NCBI GenBank assembly: GCA_030620115.1
Contig: JAUXFG010000105.1
Span: 1-13,118, forward strand
Direction of reading: 5' to 3'
Source: Candidatus Fermentibacterota bacterium
Lineage (GTDB): Bacteria; JAFGKV01
DNA: 13,118 bases
Part shown: one piece after another, positions 3,599 through 12,759 of the stretch
Layout: every line of letters begins with the position of its first letter
Numbering within the stretch: position 1 is the stretch's first letter
Notes under the pieces: model-generated
Databases searched by the model: none
What the model was told of the DNA's origin: nothing
What the model saw: the letters and a program-made list of their open reading frames with translations, nothing else
Translations under genes and position numbers: made by a program

Positions 3599-3627
3599 TT
3601 GACAGAATTTACGAGTTCTATTATATT
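3599..3627 (+). promoter_or_regulatory. Near-consensus sigma70-type promoter of the exporter operon
   Basis: TTGACA (3599-3604), a 17-nt spacer and TATATT (3622-3627) give a perfect -35 and a five-of-six -10 box. The predicted start lies about 35 nt before the regulator's ATG. It probably drives the regulator and the export genes behind it. Confidence 0.8.
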
Positions 3628-3668: not shown

Positions 3669-4154
3669 ATGCCAGATCAAGAGAAGCAGCTAGGCTTCGC
3701 GCACTACATCGAACAATGGGGAATGCTCTTCGAGCTCTTAGGCGCCACGCGTATGATGGGCAGGATCCTGGGGTGGCTGCTGATCTGCGATCCCCCGGAG
3801 CAGACCGCAAAGGAGATCGCTGACGCAATCGACGTGAGTATCGGTTCGATAAGTACCGCAACAAAAACACTCAACCAAGGGGCTATGATAGAGCGTATCG
3901 GATTGCCTGGGCAGCGAAGTGTCTACTTCCGCATCAAACCCGGCATGTGGACACAGCTTCTGAAAACACGCATGGGGCGCCTGGCAGCGATGCGTGAGCT
4001 GGCCGACAAGGGTATGGATCTTCTCTCCCCCGCGGACGACGACGCAAAGCTGCGCCTAAGGGAAATCCGTGACTACTGCGCCTTCGTGGAGAAGGAGTTC
4101 CCGATCCTCCTGGAACGTTGGGAGGAGGCTTGGAAGAAAGGACAACAATCATGA
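3669..4154 (+). CDS. GbsR/MarR-family winged-helix transcriptional regulator
   Basis: The 161-residue protein has an AAGGAGGT ribosome site 5 nt before its ATG. It matches the GbsR-type branch of the MarR superfamily: an N-terminal helix (about 10-25), RMMGRILGWLLICDPPEQ (28-45), a helix-turn-helix with TAKEIADAI (46-54) and recognition helix SIGSISTATKTLNQ (57-70), then a wing (74-90) with IERIGLPGQRSVYFRI. The C-terminal half is helical and probably serves for dimerisation and ligand sensing. Its stop overlaps the next start (ATGA at 4151-4154), so it is co-translated with the LolA-like gene and is the first gene of the exporter operon. Relatives commonly sit beside transporters, often as repressors. 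The inducer cannot be inferred, and autoregulation through the promoter at 3599-3627 is likely but unproven. Confidence 0.9.
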   Translation: MPDQEKQLGFAHYIEQWGMLFELLGATRMMGRILGWLLICDPPEQTAKEIADAIDVSIGSISTATKTLNQGAMIERIGLPGQRSVYFRIKPGMWTQLLKTRMGRLAAMRELADKGMDLLSPADDDAKLRLREIRDYCAFVEKEFPILLERWEEAWKKGQQS

Positions 4155-4978
4155 GCAAGACCTGCTGGAATCTCACCAAGACATGTTGCCGCTATACGAT
4201 TCTGGCCGCGGCGCTCCTGCTCAGTATTTTCGCGGGTTCGGCCTCTGCGCAGATGTCCTCCGGAGACCAAACACCAGCGACAACAACCGTCCCAGCGCCG
4301 GATGTATCCGAACTCCTGGGGCGTTTCGATGAATTGTACGAGTCGCCTGGCACCAAATCACAGGTGGTGATCACCATAACCAAACCAAGAAGAACCCGAA
4401 CCCTGTGCATGAGAAGCTGGAGCAAAGGAGACGACAAGGCACTCATCGTCATCGATGCCCCTGCCCGCGATGCCGGCACCGCGACGCTGAAGGTAGGCAA
4501 GAACCTCTGGAACTACCTGCCCAAGATCTCACGAACCATCCGCGTTCCGCCATCCATGATGATGGGATCGTGGATGGGGAGCGACCTGACCAACGATGAT
4601 ATAGTCCGCGAATCGTCATATGAGGAAGACTACTTCTCGGAGCTCGTTGGATCCTCCGTGGATCCCCCCGGATGGAAGGTGCGACTCGACGCTCGCCCCG
4701 ACATGGTGGGGCTTTGGAATCGTGTGGAGATCGTATTCTCGTTCGACGACGAACTCCCTATGCAAGCGCAGTTTTTCGATCGCAAGGATCGTCTCTCGCG
4801 GACCATGCGATTCGGTGAAGTGAAGGATATCGGCGATCGCCGGATACCAACCTACATGAAGATCATTCCAGAGCGGGAGGAAGACCAATGGACCGAACTC
4901 TGGTATCAAAACGTCGAGTTCGACATCGAGCTCGACGATGGAATGTTCAGCCTGTCACGGCTGGAACGAACACGCTAG
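4151..4978 (+). CDS. LolA-like periplasmic carrier (outer-membrane lipoprotein-sorting family)
   Basis: The ATG at 4151 overlaps the preceding stop and gives 275 residues. Residues 1-33 are a Sec signal peptide with cleavage after ASA, so the product should be periplasmic. The mature part has the signature of the LolA-like 'outer membrane lipoprotein-sorting protein' family: NLWNYLPKISRTIRVPPSMM (118-137) followed by GSWMGSDLTNDDIV, then alternating beta strands such as WNRVEIVFSFDDELPMQAQFF. Such proteins have an open half-barrel that binds acyl chains or other lipids. The short C-terminal TELWYQNVEFDIELDDGMFSL is also typical. It is encoded in one operon with two FtsX permeases and an ATPase, so it is the likely carrier that receives cargo from them. 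It is not canonical LolA, which is usually encoded alone and is shorter. The cargo is unknown. Confidence 0.88.
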   Translation: MSKTCWNLTKTCCRYTILAAALLLSIFAGSASAQMSSGDQTPATTTVPAPDVSELLGRFDELYESPGTKSQVVITITKPRRTRTLCMRSWSKGDDKALIVIDAPARDAGTATLKVGKNLWNYLPKISRTIRVPPSMMMGSWMGSDLTNDDIVRESSYEEDYFSELVGSSVDPPGWKVRLDARPDMVGLWNRVEIVFSFDDELPMQAQFFDRKDRLSRTMRFGEVKDIGDRRIPTYMKIIPEREEDQWTELWYQNVEFDIELDDGMFSLSRLERTR

Positions 4979-4991
4979 AATCGAGGATGCC

Positions 4992-6233
4992 ATGGCAACC
5001 AGCAGTACTCTCAGAATAGCGTGGCGCAACCTGGGGCGTAATCGTAGGCGTACCTTCCTGGCGCTTGGCGCCATCGCAGTAGGGCAGCTCGCATTCCTGG
5101 CCACTGCCGCGCTGTTGCATGGTTACGCCGAGAAGTATTTCGACTCGGCTACCGGTCCTCTGGTGGGACACATCCAGGTCCATGCTCCGGAATGGCGCGA
5201 CGATCGATCCATAGATCTCACAATTCAAGATATCCATCATACAGCCGATGAAATCCGGAAAGATCCAAACGTTGCGCATGTTTCGCCCCGCATTTTCGCT
5301 CCCGTGCTTGCGGCGCTGACAGAAGATGGGTTCATGGGAATGGTGGTTGGTATCAATCCTGCCCTTGAATCGCACAAATCGGGCCTTCTTGGCGACGAGA
5401 CGCTCTCGGGGAAAATCGGCGACAGATGCATACTCGTGGGCAGGGTCTTTGCCCAGAAGTACGACATGGAGCCCGGCATGCAGCTTGCCGTTATCGGGCA
5501 GGATGTGGACGGCTCCATTGCCAACGATCTCTTTACCATAACCGACATCTTATCTTCGCCTGTTGCCGTGGTGAATAATCTCGGCATCGTGATGTCCCTC
5601 CACGATGCACAGGAATTGCTCTTGATGTCGGATCAGGCGCATGAGATAGTGATCCATGTTGACGACGGGGATCTATTGGACGAAACAGTGTTACGGCTCT
5701 CCTCAAGCCCGCTTCTGGCCGGAATGGAAGTACTTCCATGGCAAAAGATTGTCCCCCACATCGTGTCCATGATCAAGTTCATGGACATCTACCTGTTCAT
5801 TATCCTGTTCATAGTCTTTTTAGCCGCGGCAGCGGGCATTGCCAATACCATGCTCATGTCGACCTTCGAGCGTACCCACGAGTTCGGCATGCTTCTCTCG
5901 TTGGGGTGCGGACCGGGCAGACTGTCAAGGATGATAGCCGTGGAGGCGGTCATTTTGGGTCTTTTGGGCGTAGCCATAGGAACGGTTTTAGGGCTGGGCT
6001 TCTTCCTCCTGACCTCTGAAACCGGGATCAACTATGCGGCTCTTGGAGGCGACAAATCTACCTACGAGATGGCCTACAAAGGCTTACAAATCTCCTCTTT
6101 TGTATTCCCGAAGCTCTACGTCCGTGATGTCGTCTTCGCAGTGTGCGCAGTGCTGCTGACCTCATTCATCTCAGTGATATGGCCCACGTTGCACATTGCA
6201 CGATTGGCGCCAATGGAGGCGATGCGATCATGA
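4992..6233 (+). CDS. FtsX/LolCE-type ABC permease, subunit 1
   Basis: The chosen ATG follows GAGG at 5-nt spacing and yields 413 residues. A positively charged N-terminus (LGRNRRRTF, 14-22) precedes membrane segment 1 (about 21-43). A large periplasmic MacB-PCD-like domain follows (about 45-260). Three more membrane segments lie near 266-290, 316-340 and 380-402. ERTHEFGMLLSLG (about 293-305) is the FtsX-family coupling motif that contacts the ATPase, and the end APMEAMR is also typical. This is the four-segment topology of LolC/LolE and MacB. In such systems ATP hydrolysis in the cytoplasm moves the periplasmic domains to extract or push cargo. It pairs with the next gene, overlapping it by ATGA. 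Confidence 0.93.
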   Translation: MATSSTLRIAWRNLGRNRRRTFLALGAIAVGQLAFLATAALLHGYAEKYFDSATGPLVGHIQVHAPEWRDDRSIDLTIQDIHHTADEIRKDPNVAHVSPRIFAPVLAALTEDGFMGMVVGINPALESHKSGLLGDETLSGKIGDRCILVGRVFAQKYDMEPGMQLAVIGQDVDGSIANDLFTITDILSSPVAVVNNLGIVMSLHDAQELLLMSDQAHEIVIHVDDGDLLDETVLRLSSSPLLAGMEVLPWQKIVPHIVSMIKFMDIYLFIILFIVFLAAAAGIANTMLMSTFERTHEFGMLLSLGCGPGRLSRMIAVEAVILGLLGVAIGTVLGLGFFLLTSETGINYAALGGDKSTYEMAYKGLQISSFVFPKLYVRDVVFAVCAVLLTSFISVIWPTLHIARLAPMEAMRS

Positions 6234-7471
6234 GAGTATCACTGATAATGAAGTTCGCGGTTCGTACCCTCGGAAGGAGCAAACGACGCACACTGCTCTC
6301 TGCCATCGGAATAGGCGTTGGCTGCGCAGTGGCTCTCTTCATCACGGCCTTCATGCGCAGCGGTACCGAGATGAGAATACAGGCCATTGCCGACAGTGGC
6401 TTCGGCCATCTCAGGATCGCTCCCTCAGGCTGGATGAAAAGCCGCGAGAACAAGCTTCGTCTTTCTGACTGGCATGCCGAGCTGCAGGCAGCGAGATCCA
6501 TGGATGGAGTAAGAGTCGCAGCCCCACACGCCCGTACCACTGCTCTGCTCGCCTTTGGAACCCGGGTTACGGGCGTAGAGATGTTAGGCGTGGATCCGCC
6601 TGCTGAGGAAAAGCTGAATCGGCTCATTGGAGCAGTGCAAGAGGGCAGATATCTCAGACCCGGCGATAGAGACGTGACAGTGATAGGCAATGCGATAGCA
6701 GAGCGTCTCGAGGTGGAGCTGGAAGATGATCTTTTCCTGACCGTCGTTTGCGAAGATGGCAACATGGAGTATGCTATGCTCAGGATTGTGGGCATCGTGA
6801 ATACGGGCAGCCGCGACATAGACGCTTCCATCTGTCACGTGGCCCTTGGAGACCTGGAGCGCCTCACCGGCTTGCATGGAGCAGGTGAGATCACGATCAC
6901 TCTGGAGGATCCGAGCAAAATCGATCAGATGGCGGCCCAACTCAGTGACCAGATAGGAGGACGAAATGAAGTCCTTACATGGCGAGAGATACAACCTGGA
7001 CAGGGCGCCGACTCGGCCAGTGACAAGGCATTCATGAACCTCTTCATCGGAATCGTTGGCGTGGTTGTCATTCTCGGTATCGCCAGCGCGCAGCTCACGG
7101 CAATACTCGAGCGCAAACGAGAGTTCGCTGTCTTGATGGCATTGGGTATGAAGGGTTTTCAAATCGTGCGGCTGGTTCTTTTGGAAGCTGTCGCTTTGGG
7201 GCTGTTGGGTGCAGCCGCGGGTCTCGCTCTTGTGACGCCCCTCTTGTACTACACGGATACAAAAGGAATCGACTTTGGATCAGCCTTGGGTGGAGACATG
7301 GCGGTCTCAGGTGTTCTATTCGACTTTGTGATGTACACCCAGATGGGTTTGTGGATGATACCGTATGCATTATCCGTTGCGCTCATTTCGACACTCATTG
7401 CGGCATTATATCCCGCCTGGTTTGCCATGAAAACAGATCCCACTTCCGCCCTGAGCTTGAGGGAGGCATAA
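6230..7471 (+). CDS. FtsX/LolCE-type ABC permease, subunit 2
   Basis: The start at 6230 overlaps the previous stop (ATGA); GGAGG lies 10 nt upstream. The protein also has 413 residues, exactly the length of its partner, and similar landmarks at nearly the same positions: LGRSKRRTLL at 14-23, membrane segment 1 at about 20-42, ERKREFAVLMALG at about 294-306, and further membrane segments near 268-292, 312-340 and 376-398. Sequence identity by eye is limited, so the two probably form a heterodimer of old paralogues like LolC and LolE. The periplasmic domain (45-265) is the likely docking site for the LolA-like carrier; which of the two subunits docks it cannot be told. The C-terminal PTSALSLREA is typical of the family. 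Confidence 0.93.
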   Translation: MRVSLIMKFAVRTLGRSKRRTLLSAIGIGVGCAVALFITAFMRSGTEMRIQAIADSGFGHLRIAPSGWMKSRENKLRLSDWHAELQAARSMDGVRVAAPHARTTALLAFGTRVTGVEMLGVDPPAEEKLNRLIGAVQEGRYLRPGDRDVTVIGNAIAERLEVELEDDLFLTVVCEDGNMEYAMLRIVGIVNTGSRDIDASICHVALGDLERLTGLHGAGEITITLEDPSKIDQMAAQLSDQIGGRNEVLTWREIQPGQGADSASDKAFMNLFIGIVGVVVILGIASAQLTAILERKREFAVLMALGMKGFQIVRLVLLEAVALGLLGAAAGLALVTPLLYYTDTKGIDFGSALGGDMAVSGVLFDFVMYTQMGLWMIPYALSVALISTLIAALYPAWFAMKTDPTSALSLREA

Positions 7472-7473
7472 AG

Positions 7474-8196
<723 letters not shown>

Positions 8197-8252
8197 TACT
8201 CCGTCTCGGAATTTCTGTCCTCTGTTTTGGCAATTCAAAATGAGACGATATT

Positions 8253-8275
8253 AGGAGATGATGAAGACATCTCCT
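8253..8275 (+). terminator. Hairpin between the ATPase and barrel genes (terminator or attenuator)
   Basis: AGGAGATG (8253-8260) and CATCTCCT (8268-8275) form a perfect 8-bp stem with a 7-nt loop. It lies 57 nt after the ATPase stop and 78 nt before the barrel start. There is no T-run. It may partly stop transcription so that the barrel is made at a lower level, or it may mark the operon end. A weak promoter-like pair TTGGCA-N16-TATTAG (8227-8254) runs into it. Confidence 0.45.
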
Positions 8276-8353
8276 GATTCTGCGACAGGGGCGGGTGGGT
8301 GACATTTAGTTGGTGAGAAGTTCGGGCTGGGTCTTTCACAGGGGCTGGATCAT

Positions 8354-9661
8354 ATGGGAACAGCGTGTTGCGTGCACTTGGGTAAGACCGGAAGACTGAT
8401 AGCCGGAATAGCTTCTGCGCTGTGGCAGATAGCCTTCGTGCCCACAGCGTTTGCTATCGAGCTCTGGTCGAGCAATGTTGACGATCGTTATCTCTCCCTC
8501 GATGCATCGATGAAATGGACGTCTCTTCTTTCGTACGCGCCGGATGACACCGCGTTTTACCCTGAGCGCTGGAGTTCAGCTAGTCTTTGGCGCATGAGAC
8601 TGGCTATCGGTGCGCAGCCGGCGTCTTGGTTGACCGTCAAGACGGCCTATGAACAACGTGCTCGGGCAGTCTCCGAAGGCTCAGGCGCTGCGGGAGGATT
8701 CGGCATTCTCGTTTCCGAGAATCGCGCACCCTATCGTATTTCCCAGATCGACGAGTCTCTGGTGGAAATCGGCAGCACTTTCGCTTACAGACACGAGCTT
8801 GATCGTGTCTTCGTGGCCGCGCATCTAGGGAGAACAGAGATCATCATAGGCAGGCAGGCCATCGGCTGGGGCCGCGGCGTGCTTTTCTCCGCAGTTGACA
8901 TATTCGCGCCTTTCAGTCCGCTGGAGAGCGACAGGGAATGGCGGCGCGGCATCGATGCGGTTCGAGTCGGCACTCCGGTAACCGATCTGATGTCGGTGGA
9001 GGTTGTGGCAGCATTCGGTGAATCAAGGGAGACATCCGCCTTGGTTGGACGTATGCGAGGATACCTGGGCAATGTTGACGGTGAGATGATATTCGGGAAG
9101 AGACGTGAGGATTATGTCTATGCAGCCACGGCCTCATTGCCCGTGCTTGACGCGGAGCTGCACGGCGAGGTCGCGCTTTTCAAGACACCGGGGGAATCGC
9201 CGGATTGCGGCGTCTTTGGGAGAGATGACCTCATCGCAAAGACGGTCATCGGGGGCTCCTACAGCTTTGAACTGGGCATCGAGCTTTATCTCATGGCGGA
9301 GTATCATCATAGCGGGTTTGGTGTACGCGACATCAAGGATCTCGAGACATGCCTGGAAGAGGAAGCATTGAGAGAACGGTTTGTGCGAGGCGACACCCAG
9401 ATCTTGGGCCGGCATGCCGGTGTCGTGCAGGCTGTGTATGGGATTGGAGGGGTGTCGCCACTCAATATCTCCTGGATATTCAGCCCAATGGACGGATCCG
9501 GGATCTTCGTTCCAACCGTATCATGGATATTCTCGGACAATGTCACCCTGGTCGCCAATGCCTATCTCCCCTACGGCGCAGAACCCAAGGACGGCAAGAT
9601 TAGGAGCGAGTACGGCGGCACGCCGACCAGTGGACTGCTCCAGATCAGTTTCTATTATTGA
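8354..9661 (+). CDS. Predicted outer-membrane beta-barrel protein
   Basis: The product has 435 residues. The start is the ATG preceded by AGGGG at about 9-nt spacing. A signal peptide is visible (basic K11-R14, hydrophobic 15-33, cleavage after AFA at 34). The mature sequence is made of alternating amphipathic strands rich in aromatic residues and Gly, with no globular domain, and ends ISFYY, a terminal aromatic residue typical of proteins inserted by the Bam complex. The stretch GRQAIGWGRGVLFSAVDIFAPFSP (about 165-188, written without its neighbours) resembles a motif of large DUF1302-like barrels, which often neighbour LolA-like and DUF1329 proteins. It lies 157 nt after the ATPase on the same strand. 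I infer that it is the outer-membrane partner of the exporter, but a separate porin-like role is possible. The two midregion cysteines are unusual for a barrel. Confidence 0.75.
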   Translation: MGTACCVHLGKTGRLIAGIASALWQIAFVPTAFAIELWSSNVDDRYLSLDASMKWTSLLSYAPDDTAFYPERWSSASLWRMRLAIGAQPASWLTVKTAYEQRARAVSEGSGAAGGFGILVSENRAPYRISQIDESLVEIGSTFAYRHELDRVFVAAHLGRTEIIIGRQAIGWGRGVLFSAVDIFAPFSPLESDREWRRGIDAVRVGTPVTDLMSVEVVAAFGESRETSALVGRMRGYLGNVDGEMIFGKRREDYVYAATASLPVLDAELHGEVALFKTPGESPDCGVFGRDDLIAKTVIGGSYSFELGIELYLMAEYHHSGFGVRDIKDLETCLEEEALRERFVRGDTQILGRHAGVVQAVYGIGGVSPLNISWIFSPMDGSGIFVPTVSWIFSDNVTLVANAYLPYGAEPKDGKIRSEYGGTPTSGLLQISFYY

Positions 9662-9939: not shown

Positions 9940-10158
9940 ATGTTGAGTAGCTACACAGCGAAGTATACAAGAATCCGGTCCGGCTATATGGGGCAACTCG
10001 TGGAATGGCCGGAGGTTGTGACCGAAGGTGGAACTCTGGAGGAATGCCGAGAAATGCTGAGAGACGCGTTGAGTGAGATGATACTTGCATATCGGCAACA
10101 AGAAAAGGAGATCCCCATCGGCAGCGCTCTTTTGGAGCAGATTCCGGTAGAAATGTAG
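9940..10158 (+). CDS. hicB: HicB-family antitoxin (short form)
   Basis: The ATG at 9940 has GGAGG 7 nt upstream and gives 72 residues; a TTG at 9910 in the same frame overlaps the -10 box and is not preferred. The sequence fits the HicB partial RNase H-like fold: a YTAKYTRIRSGYMGQLVEWPEV strand pair (residues ~5-26, Gly-Tyr and a Pro-Glu turn), then TEGGTLEECREMLRDALSEMI as the helix. It neutralises the toxin encoded 1 nt downstream by direct binding. Longer HicB proteins carry a C-terminal HTH or ribbon-helix-helix domain. None is present here, so autoregulation must be weak, use another protein, or depend on the complex. Antitoxin comes first, the reverse of the Escherichia coli order but common elsewhere. 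Confidence 0.88.
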   Translation: MLSSYTAKYTRIRSGYMGQLVEWPEVVTEGGTLEECREMLRDALSEMILAYRQQEKEIPIGSALLEQIPVEM

Positions 10159-10978: not shown

Positions 10979-11680
10979 ATGCGGCTCTCGCCTATTCTCC
11001 TCATCTCTCTGTCTTTGCTGCTTGCGGGCGATGCGTCGACTGCATACAGCATAGGCAATCCTCCACGCATCGATAGCTCCGCGCCCATTGTGATCGATTG
11101 GGAAGATCCCGAGCCGCCGCAAGCCCAGCAATGCGCCGAGGATGTGCTGAATGAACCGTGGAACAAGGACAAACACACCACGCTCAGTCAAGGAGTTACC
11201 ACAAAGCTCACCATGCACATCACTACTCTCGTTGACCGCACCACAGGCATCGAGGGCTTCCACACGGCTCTGGACCAAACTGAGACTAGCATCGAGGATC
11301 GTCTTGACCGTCTGGGGGCAACCGAGACCGAAATGGAGATCACCATTCGTCTGTCCGGTGCGATTCTATTTGACTTCGATGCCGCGGGAATACGACCTGA
11401 TGCCGGGCGTGTATTGAACGAGGTTGTGGAAGTATTGGGCTCCTATGTCGGCCGTCCGGTCAAGGTGGAAGGCCATACGGACTCTGTCGGATCGGACGAG
11501 TACAACCAGAAGCTTACAGAGCAACGCGCAGAGTCGGTCTGTGACTGGTTCGTGGTCCATGGAGTAGAGGCGGGCCGTCTCTCATCTGCCGGATATGGAG
11601 AAACCAAGCCAGTAGACGACAACTCGATTGCAGAGGGTAGACAGCAAAACCGCCGTGTGGAGATCACAATAGCGAAATAG
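10979..11680 (+). CDS. OmpA-family peptidoglycan-binding protein
   Basis: This 233-residue protein starts 1 nt after the previous stop. It has no strong ribosome site, so translational coupling is likely. Residues 1-22 form a signal peptide. An extended, Thr-rich and partly helical linker (about 25-125) follows; it has no barrel. The C-terminal OmpA domain begins near ILFDFDAAGIRPDAG (129-143), has GHTDSVGSDEYNQKLTEQRA (165-184), and SSAGYGETKP, and ends NRRVEITIAK (224-233). That domain binds the diaminopimelate of peptidoglycan non-covalently, so the protein probably tethers its partner to the wall. There is no lipobox, so anchorage must come from the linker or from a partner. The secreted protein encoded upstream is the obvious candidate. 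Confidence 0.93.
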   Translation: MRLSPILLISLSLLLAGDASTAYSIGNPPRIDSSAPIVIDWEDPEPPQAQQCAEDVLNEPWNKDKHTTLSQGVTTKLTMHITTLVDRTTGIEGFHTALDQTETSIEDRLDRLGATETEMEITIRLSGAILFDFDAAGIRPDAGRVLNEVVEVLGSYVGRPVKVEGHTDSVGSDEYNQKLTEQRAESVCDWFVVHGVEAGRLSSAGYGETKPVDDNSIAEGRQQNRRVEITIAK

Positions 11681-12155: not shown

Positions 12156-12186
12156 GCATTGATCCATTTCCCATGAGGTGAATTCC

Positions 12187-12759
12187 GTGGCAAGAACAAA
12201 CAAGACGAAGTATGCGATTTTGGGGTTCCTGAGTTCGGGGCCGAAATCAGGATATGACATCAAGAGAGAAAGCGAGTGCTGCATCGGTTGCTTCTGGCAT
12301 GAGAGCTACGGCTCCATATATCCCATGATGAAGAGGCTCACTGCTGAGGGTCTCGTCACTCGCGAACTGGATACCGAAGGCGGAGTGCACGATCGTATTC
12401 TCTATCACATGACCGAGAAGGGCTGGGCCGAGCTCAAGGATTGGCTGAGACGCCCGCCTGACCCGCCTGTTCTGCGCGATGAACTGCTCCTGAAGATTAC
12501 CTTCGGCAGGCATGGTTCCTTTCGGGATCTTGCCGCGCACGTGAATAGATGCCGGATCTACTGCCAGGACAGACTGAATACGCTGGAGCGAATCGAACAG
12601 CGGCTCCATGAGAACCAGTCAACCCACCCGAACTTTCCCCTCTGGTTGATCACCGTCAACATGGGGCGGCATCGCGCCAATGCATACCTCGCATGGTGCG
12701 AGGAGACATTGGAAACGCTTGCCGAGCTCGACAACAATCACATGAAAGACACATCGTAG
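12187..12759 (+). CDS. PadR-family transcriptional regulator
   Basis: The GTG at 12187 is chosen because AGGTGA lies 5 nt upstream; a GTG at 12178 in the same frame is inside that ribosome site. The product has 190 residues. The N-terminal winged helix has the PadR pattern KYAILGFLSSGPKSGYDIK (8-26) and ESYGSIYPMMKRLTAEGLV (recognition helix), followed by the wing around HDRILYHMTEKGW. The C-terminal part (about 95-185) is an all-helical dimerisation domain of the Vir_act_alpha_C type. This length fits the longer PadR subgroup. PadR proteins usually repress a neighbouring gene and are released by a small ligand. The next gene, 16 nt downstream, encodes an Ntn hydrolase and is the obvious co-expressed partner. 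A likely operator sits over its own promoter. Confidence 0.93.
   Translation: MARTNKTKYAILGFLSSGPKSGYDIKRESECCIGCFWHESYGSIYPMMKRLTAEGLVTRELDTEGGVHDRILYHMTEKGWAELKDWLRRPPDPPVLRDELLLKITFGRHGSFRDLAAHVNRCRIYCQDRLNTLERIEQRLHENQSTHPNFPLWLITVNMGRHRANAYLAWCEETLETLAELDNNHMKDTS

Follow-up and report, generated by a model that had tools for sequence, protein, structure and literature searches.

It is still an open question how the outer membrane receives lipids other than lipopolysaccharides and lipoproteins, and a gene cluster of a Candidatus Fermentibacterota bacterium raises a related one: what is served by a LolCDE-like ATP-binding cassette (ABC) transporter that is encoded together with a LolA-like periplasmic carrier and an outer-membrane barrel? 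The cluster lies in a stretch of 13,118 nucleotides (nt) (contig JAUXFG010000105.1 of assembly GCA_030620115.1; hereafter the window), which is the whole of contig C246 in a draft genome of 4.1 Mb. Five of its genes form a conserved cassette that is probably an ancient, dedicated, ABC-powered version of the LolA-shuttle/barrel modules. Six genes at 3669-9661, namely the cassette and an upstream regulator gene, are tightly packed on the + strand, as the first-pass annotation of this DNA had described.

3599..3627, + strand: promoter-like site TTGACA-17-TATATT upstream of the regulator gene, matching the consensus at 11 of 12 positions
3669..4154, + strand: MarR/GbsR-type winged-helix regulator, 161 amino acids (aa), assigned by a profile of its relatives; a lineage-specific addition
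4151..4978, + strand: LolA-like periplasmic carrier with signal peptide, 275 aa, PF17131
4992..6233, + strand: FtsX/LolC-E-like permease, slot 1, 413 aa, about 4 transmembrane segments (FtsX, MacB_PCD, hydropathy)
6230..7471, + strand: FtsX/LolC-E-like permease, slot 2, 413 aa, about 4 transmembrane segments (FtsX, MacB_PCD, hydropathy)
7474..8196, + strand: LolD-like ABC ATPase, 240 aa, ABC_tran, all motifs present
8354..9661, + strand: predicted outer-membrane beta-barrel, 435 aa, about 18 strands in the structure model, distantly DUF1302-related

The junctions, in gene order, are an ATGA overlap, 13 nt, an ATGA overlap, 2 nt and 157 nt, which confirms the coupling of the first five genes reported earlier. 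The promoter-like site is suggestive only, because five such sites occur in the region and 3.7 are expected. In the 157-nt gap before the barrel gene no terminator-like site was found, and a hairpin region at ~8254-8276, considered as a transcription stop, was rejected because it folds no better than shuffled sequences (z -0.67). A search with PADLOC for a link to defence systems returned generic ATPase and FtsX matches only.

Regarding the conservation of the unit, genome contigs scanned with the carrier as query gave 350 relatives, the best 80 of which were kept, and gene order was counted at the loci with at least 5.2 kb of downstream sequence (n = 59). Carrier, permease, permease, ATPase and barrel are encoded on one strand, complete and in this order, at 59 of these 59 loci, a figure that describes the loci most similar in carrier and is no unbiased rate, the survey of PF17131 loci described below being less biased. 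Automatic detection found 58 of them, and the remaining one has a split first permease. In that survey, barrel matches lie on the carrier's strand in 55 cases and on the opposite strand in 0, the engines in 78 and 0; the constant order and the strand split of the barrels argue that the adjacency is not due to chance. Median intergenic gaps across the cassettes are 37, 15, 11 and 1 nt, and as the ATPase-barrel gap is at most 50 nt in 44 of 58 loci, the barrel is counted as part of the unit despite the 157 nt in the window. The conserved unit consists of these five genes, without the regulator, and the concern that homologous neighbourhoods might usually lack the LolA-like or the barrel gene is dispelled at these loci. 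It spans at least 13 bacterial phyla, including Eisenbacteria, Krumholzibacteriota, Latescibacterota, Elusimicrobia, Poribacteria, Myxococcota, Zixiibacteriota, Gemmatimonadota, Pseudomonadota, Acidobacteria, Desulfobacterota and Nitrospirota; shorter loci add Fermentibacterales and Deferribacteres, and the nearest relatives among the best 80 belong to Candidatus Eisenbacteria and TA06 bacterium SM23_40. Cultured species that own the cassette include Natronospirillum operosum and Desulfocicer vacuolatum. Some Poribacteria have extra genes between the carrier and the first permease (L078, 8682-9266; L111, 9355-11028), which form a 195-aa and a 558-aa family of six loci each. A variant order of ATPase, three permeases, carrier and barrel occurs at one locus (L042, 3211-9593).

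The regulator scores 17.9 bits against Pfam MarR_2, under the cut-off of 27 bits, and a profile of its relatives matches the solved DNA-binding proteins 4nb5 (E 4.4e-39) and 1ku9 (E 6e-7). It is found upstream of the cassette only in close relatives and at one Zixiibacteriota locus (L119); the idea that the cluster has its own regulator thus holds for the MarR/GbsR-type protein encoded upstream, and does not extend to the conserved unit. A regulated efflux or tolerance system, in which this regulator would sense toxic hydrophobic compounds to be expelled, could be read from the overlap of its gene with the carrier gene, from the TetR regulators carried by two RND (resistance-nodulation-division) paralogue clusters of the same genome and from the monoterpene tolerance associated with AmeABCD. 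However, nearly all other cassettes lack this regulator, which argues that the core function is independent of it, and efflux of this kind is judged very improbable.

Is the cassette, then, the general lipoprotein (Lol) system of the cell? Both permeases match FtsX and MacB_PCD above the Pfam cut-offs, and their nearest solved structures are LolF (slot 1) and LolE (slot 2, E 6e-19). Against TIGR02212 (lolCE; cut-off 362) they reach about 97 and 127 bits, whereas a LolC/E-like pair elsewhere in the genome (C291) reaches 254-271 bits, about twice as much and also under the cut-off. The ATPase, whose Walker A (GPSGSGKT), signature (LSGGQQQR), Walker B (LVLADEPT) and H-loop (STHD) motifs can be read directly, scores 221 bits against TIGR02211 (LolD; cut-off 307.75) and is surpassed by a LolD-like ATPase at C55 (266 bits, likewise under the cut-off). 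The single PF03548 (LolA) match of the genome is at C116; none is present in the window carrier, for which PF17131 is the sole family at E <= 0.01. As better LolC/E, LolD and LolA candidates are located elsewhere in the genome, the cassette is not the general lipoprotein Lol system, nor are these genes the genome's only LolCDE-LolA set. Permease and ATPase are encoded as separate genes, unlike the fused chain of the MacAB-TolC type. In the permease tree, a single clade (support 99) unites the cassette permeases of many phyla and stands apart from the C291 pair, and slots 1 and 2 split into distinct lineages (one label change, support 76); therefore, the arrangement with two permeases seems to be old.

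A specialised second pathway for lipoproteins, with the barrel replacing LolB as receptor in the outer membrane or as translocon to the surface, would agree with the nearness of the permeases and the ATPase to LolE, LolF and LolD, with the LolA/LolB fold of the carrier, with a genome in which no LolB was found and with the similar role proposed for a Borrelia cluster of ABC transporter, LolA-like protein and Omp85, BBJ23-BBJ29 (PMC13078400). It is less compatible with the porin-like barrel model, with flanks in which no lipoprotein gene recurs beside the cassette and with carriers of the same superfamily that partner RND pumps tied to apolar small molecules. Moreover, the PF17131 protein LolA3 of Porphyromonas gingivalis shows only weak LolB binding (PMC13103446), and deletion of lolA3 in Flavobacterium johnsoniae leaves gliding and amylase secretion intact (PMC11885536). 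On balance, a second lipoprotein pathway seems rather unlikely.

The carrier matches PF17131 over the full profile (1-184 of 184; E 5.5e-42; 143.9 bits against a cut-off of 30). Its model (predicted local distance difference test, pLDDT, 89.4) is nearest in fold to 4z48, P. gingivalis LolA3, 3bk5 and 3buu (Z 25-27) and matches LolB and LolA at Z ~10-15; the lipobox pattern is absent from it and from 79 of 81 carriers scanned. The window genome holds five PF17131 carriers, each adjoining a barrel-like gene; the engine is ABC for the window and C240 and MMPL for C212, C146 and C46, and the DUF1302 cut-off is exceeded by two of the barrels next to MMPL pumps. In the survey of 98 genomes, 70 PF17131 loci were examined, some of the incomplete ones ending at contig ends. 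An RND or ABC engine stands alongside at 57 and a barrel at 54: RND and barrel at 32, ABC and barrel at 13, both engines and barrel at 1, barrel alone at 8, engine alone at 11 and neither at 5. One genome (G089) contains 17 matches to PF17131, and many of these are in frames of 450-510 aa.

The carriers also appear to follow their engines. On a quick tree with many open forks, the 81 engine-labelled carriers require 2 engine changes, as against 27 expected by shuffling; frequent engine swapping was not seen. The odd ABC row (L189) has a long branch and a weak permease match in a 794-aa frame, which make its label doubtful, and an RND clade (L016 and L040) has its carrier on the ABC side of the tree, possibly by an engine switch. 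Together with the two ABC and three MMPL carriers of the window genome, the tree bears out the earlier suggestion that an ABC engine stands in place of an RND pump. Engine-specific carrier residues cluster at 81-101 and 117-148, and those common to both engine types include P104, P124, G143, D145 and D150; the former may touch the engine and the latter may serve cargo or fold.

The barrel has no match in Pfam or NCBIfam, and its sequence gave no credible match to solved structures. It is modelled confidently as a beta-barrel of about 18 strands (pLDDT 89.3; predicted template modelling score 0.84) that resembles OprD/Occ channels (Z 24; root-mean-square deviation 3.2 over 321 residues) and AlgE (Z 22); as modelled, the barrel is porin-like, with an OprD/AlgE fold. 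The strands start at residue 46, which leaves no room for POTRA domains, and Omp85 is not among the listed fold matches. DUF1302 is matched weakly by 6 of 61 relatives of the barrel. An hhalign comparison of the window barrel with barrels of RND clusters, two of them above the DUF1302 cut-off, gave probability 100 (E 1.6e-40) and is not fully independent, because two of its five rows were first found with the window barrel; at the sequence level, the barrel is indicated to be homologous to the DUF1302-type barrels of RND clusters. Its conserved residues G166, R167, D182, G199 and D201 map to a long loop that follows a strand, and to the surroundings of this loop, which may fold into the lumen.

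The resemblance to OprD/Occ uptake channels fits import, whereby the barrel would admit an apolar nutrient, the carrier would deliver it at the inner membrane, and the ABC complex would receive it there or move it inward; in addition, growth on Tween20 requires RND sister modules, which are also linked to the use of hydrocarbons or terpenes. However, LolCDE/MacB-like type VII ABC complexes are known to extract or expel, and no catabolic genes recur in the cassette flanks. Import is considered improbable.

A dedicated ATP-driven transenvelope exporter of hydrophobic cargo from the inner to the outer membrane is regarded as fairly likely. The two permeases and the ATPase would assemble into a type VII ABC complex resembling LolCDE, which extracts a hydrophobic or acylated molecule from the inner membrane's outer leaflet. 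The LolA-like carrier would accept it in its hydrophobic half-barrel, traverse the periplasm and dock on the porin-like barrel, which would insert the cargo into the outer membrane or release it outside. By analogy, the cargo is more likely lipid-like or otherwise apolar than the general lipoprotein pool, because the pumps that carriers of the superfamily serve are linked to apolar compounds, and because no lipoprotein gene co-travels with the cassette. The best explanation for the cassette is an ABC-powered sister of the modules that combine an RND/MMPL pump, a LolA-superfamily carrier and a DUF1302 barrel. The dedicated inner-to-outer-membrane export route of the first-pass annotation is hence supported, with its direction, its cargo and the barrel as receptor being what we infer.

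Several points weigh against this export reading. The 157-nt gap leaves co-transcription of the barrel gene in the window unproven, a recognised barrel is missing at about a quarter of the PF17131 loci, and for the cassette the contacts of the carrier with barrel and permeases are deduced. Clustering of the flanking genes yielded no further gene family with clear recurrence across phyla; as the cassette is accompanied by no cargo gene, the cargo class depends on distant RND relatives, and since these are linked to growth with apolar compounds, transport may by analogy also run inward. Neighbour families that do recur were rejected as clues to the cargo, since they resemble synteny within Poribacteria or shadow frames of the reverse strand. 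A broader proposal, that the cassette represents an ancient general ABC route carrying a non-lipoprotein envelope lipid or apolar metabolite to the outer membrane in the at least 13 phyla, with its own LolA-type shuttle and barrel receptor and distinct from Lol, Lpt, Mla and RND modules, is tentatively put forward as a possibility.

Elsewhere on the + strand of the window are a serpin (protease inhibitor; 1278-2585; Pfam 401 bits), whose N-terminus resembles a lipoprotein signal (MISGCGD) as judged by eye, a UPF0150 small protein (9940-10158), a protein whose C-terminal part looks by eye like an OmpA-type peptidoglycan-binding domain (10979-11680) and a PadR-type regulator (12178-12759).

No published description of the cassette was found in a literature search whose coverage left out most subscription journals and all preprints. 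As a five-gene unit that is intact over many phyla and distinct from general Lol, it offers a compact, testable system for the question of lipid transport. The engine split within one carrier family provides a natural comparison of a LolA-type shuttle matched to an ABC transporter or to an RND pump, and the engine-specific carrier residues are candidate docking residues.

Among known systems, LolCDE-LolA-LolB has in common with the cassette a type VII ABC complex and a LolA-fold carrier; the cassette differs in its PF17131 rather than PF03548 carrier, in a barrel instead of LolB and in LolCE and LolD scores below the cut-offs. P. gingivalis LolA3 (9tp6) has the family and the fold of the cassette carrier (Z 26.9), and the part of its report available mentions no link to such a cassette. 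Borrelia BBJ23-BBJ29 likewise clusters a LolCDE/MacB-like ABC transporter, a LolA-like carrier and an outer-membrane barrel, but with one permease (a proposed homodimer), tetratricopeptide repeat proteins and an Omp85-family barrel, as against two permease lineages and a porin-like barrel. The AmeABCD-type modules of Castellaniella and Pseudomonas putida (PP_0765/0766/2018/2019), consisting of RND (HAE3/MMPL), DUF1329 and DUF1302 proteins, have a LolA-superfamily carrier and a related barrel, as in the cassette, encoded beside or co-functional with an inner-membrane pump. AmeABCD confers monoterpene tolerance (PMC6394551). In P. putida the DUF1302 barrel PP_0765 and the DUF1329 carrier PP_0766 are both essential on Tween20, with phenotypes common to a periplasmic protein and an efflux transporter, and co-folding pairs the barrel with the carrier and the carrier with the RND pump (PMC10866462). 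Unlike these modules, the cassette has no YCF48-type protein, its carrier belongs to a PF17131 branch separate from the RND-linked PF17131 carriers, and its engine would be a two-permease LolCDE-like ABC complex instead of an RND pump.
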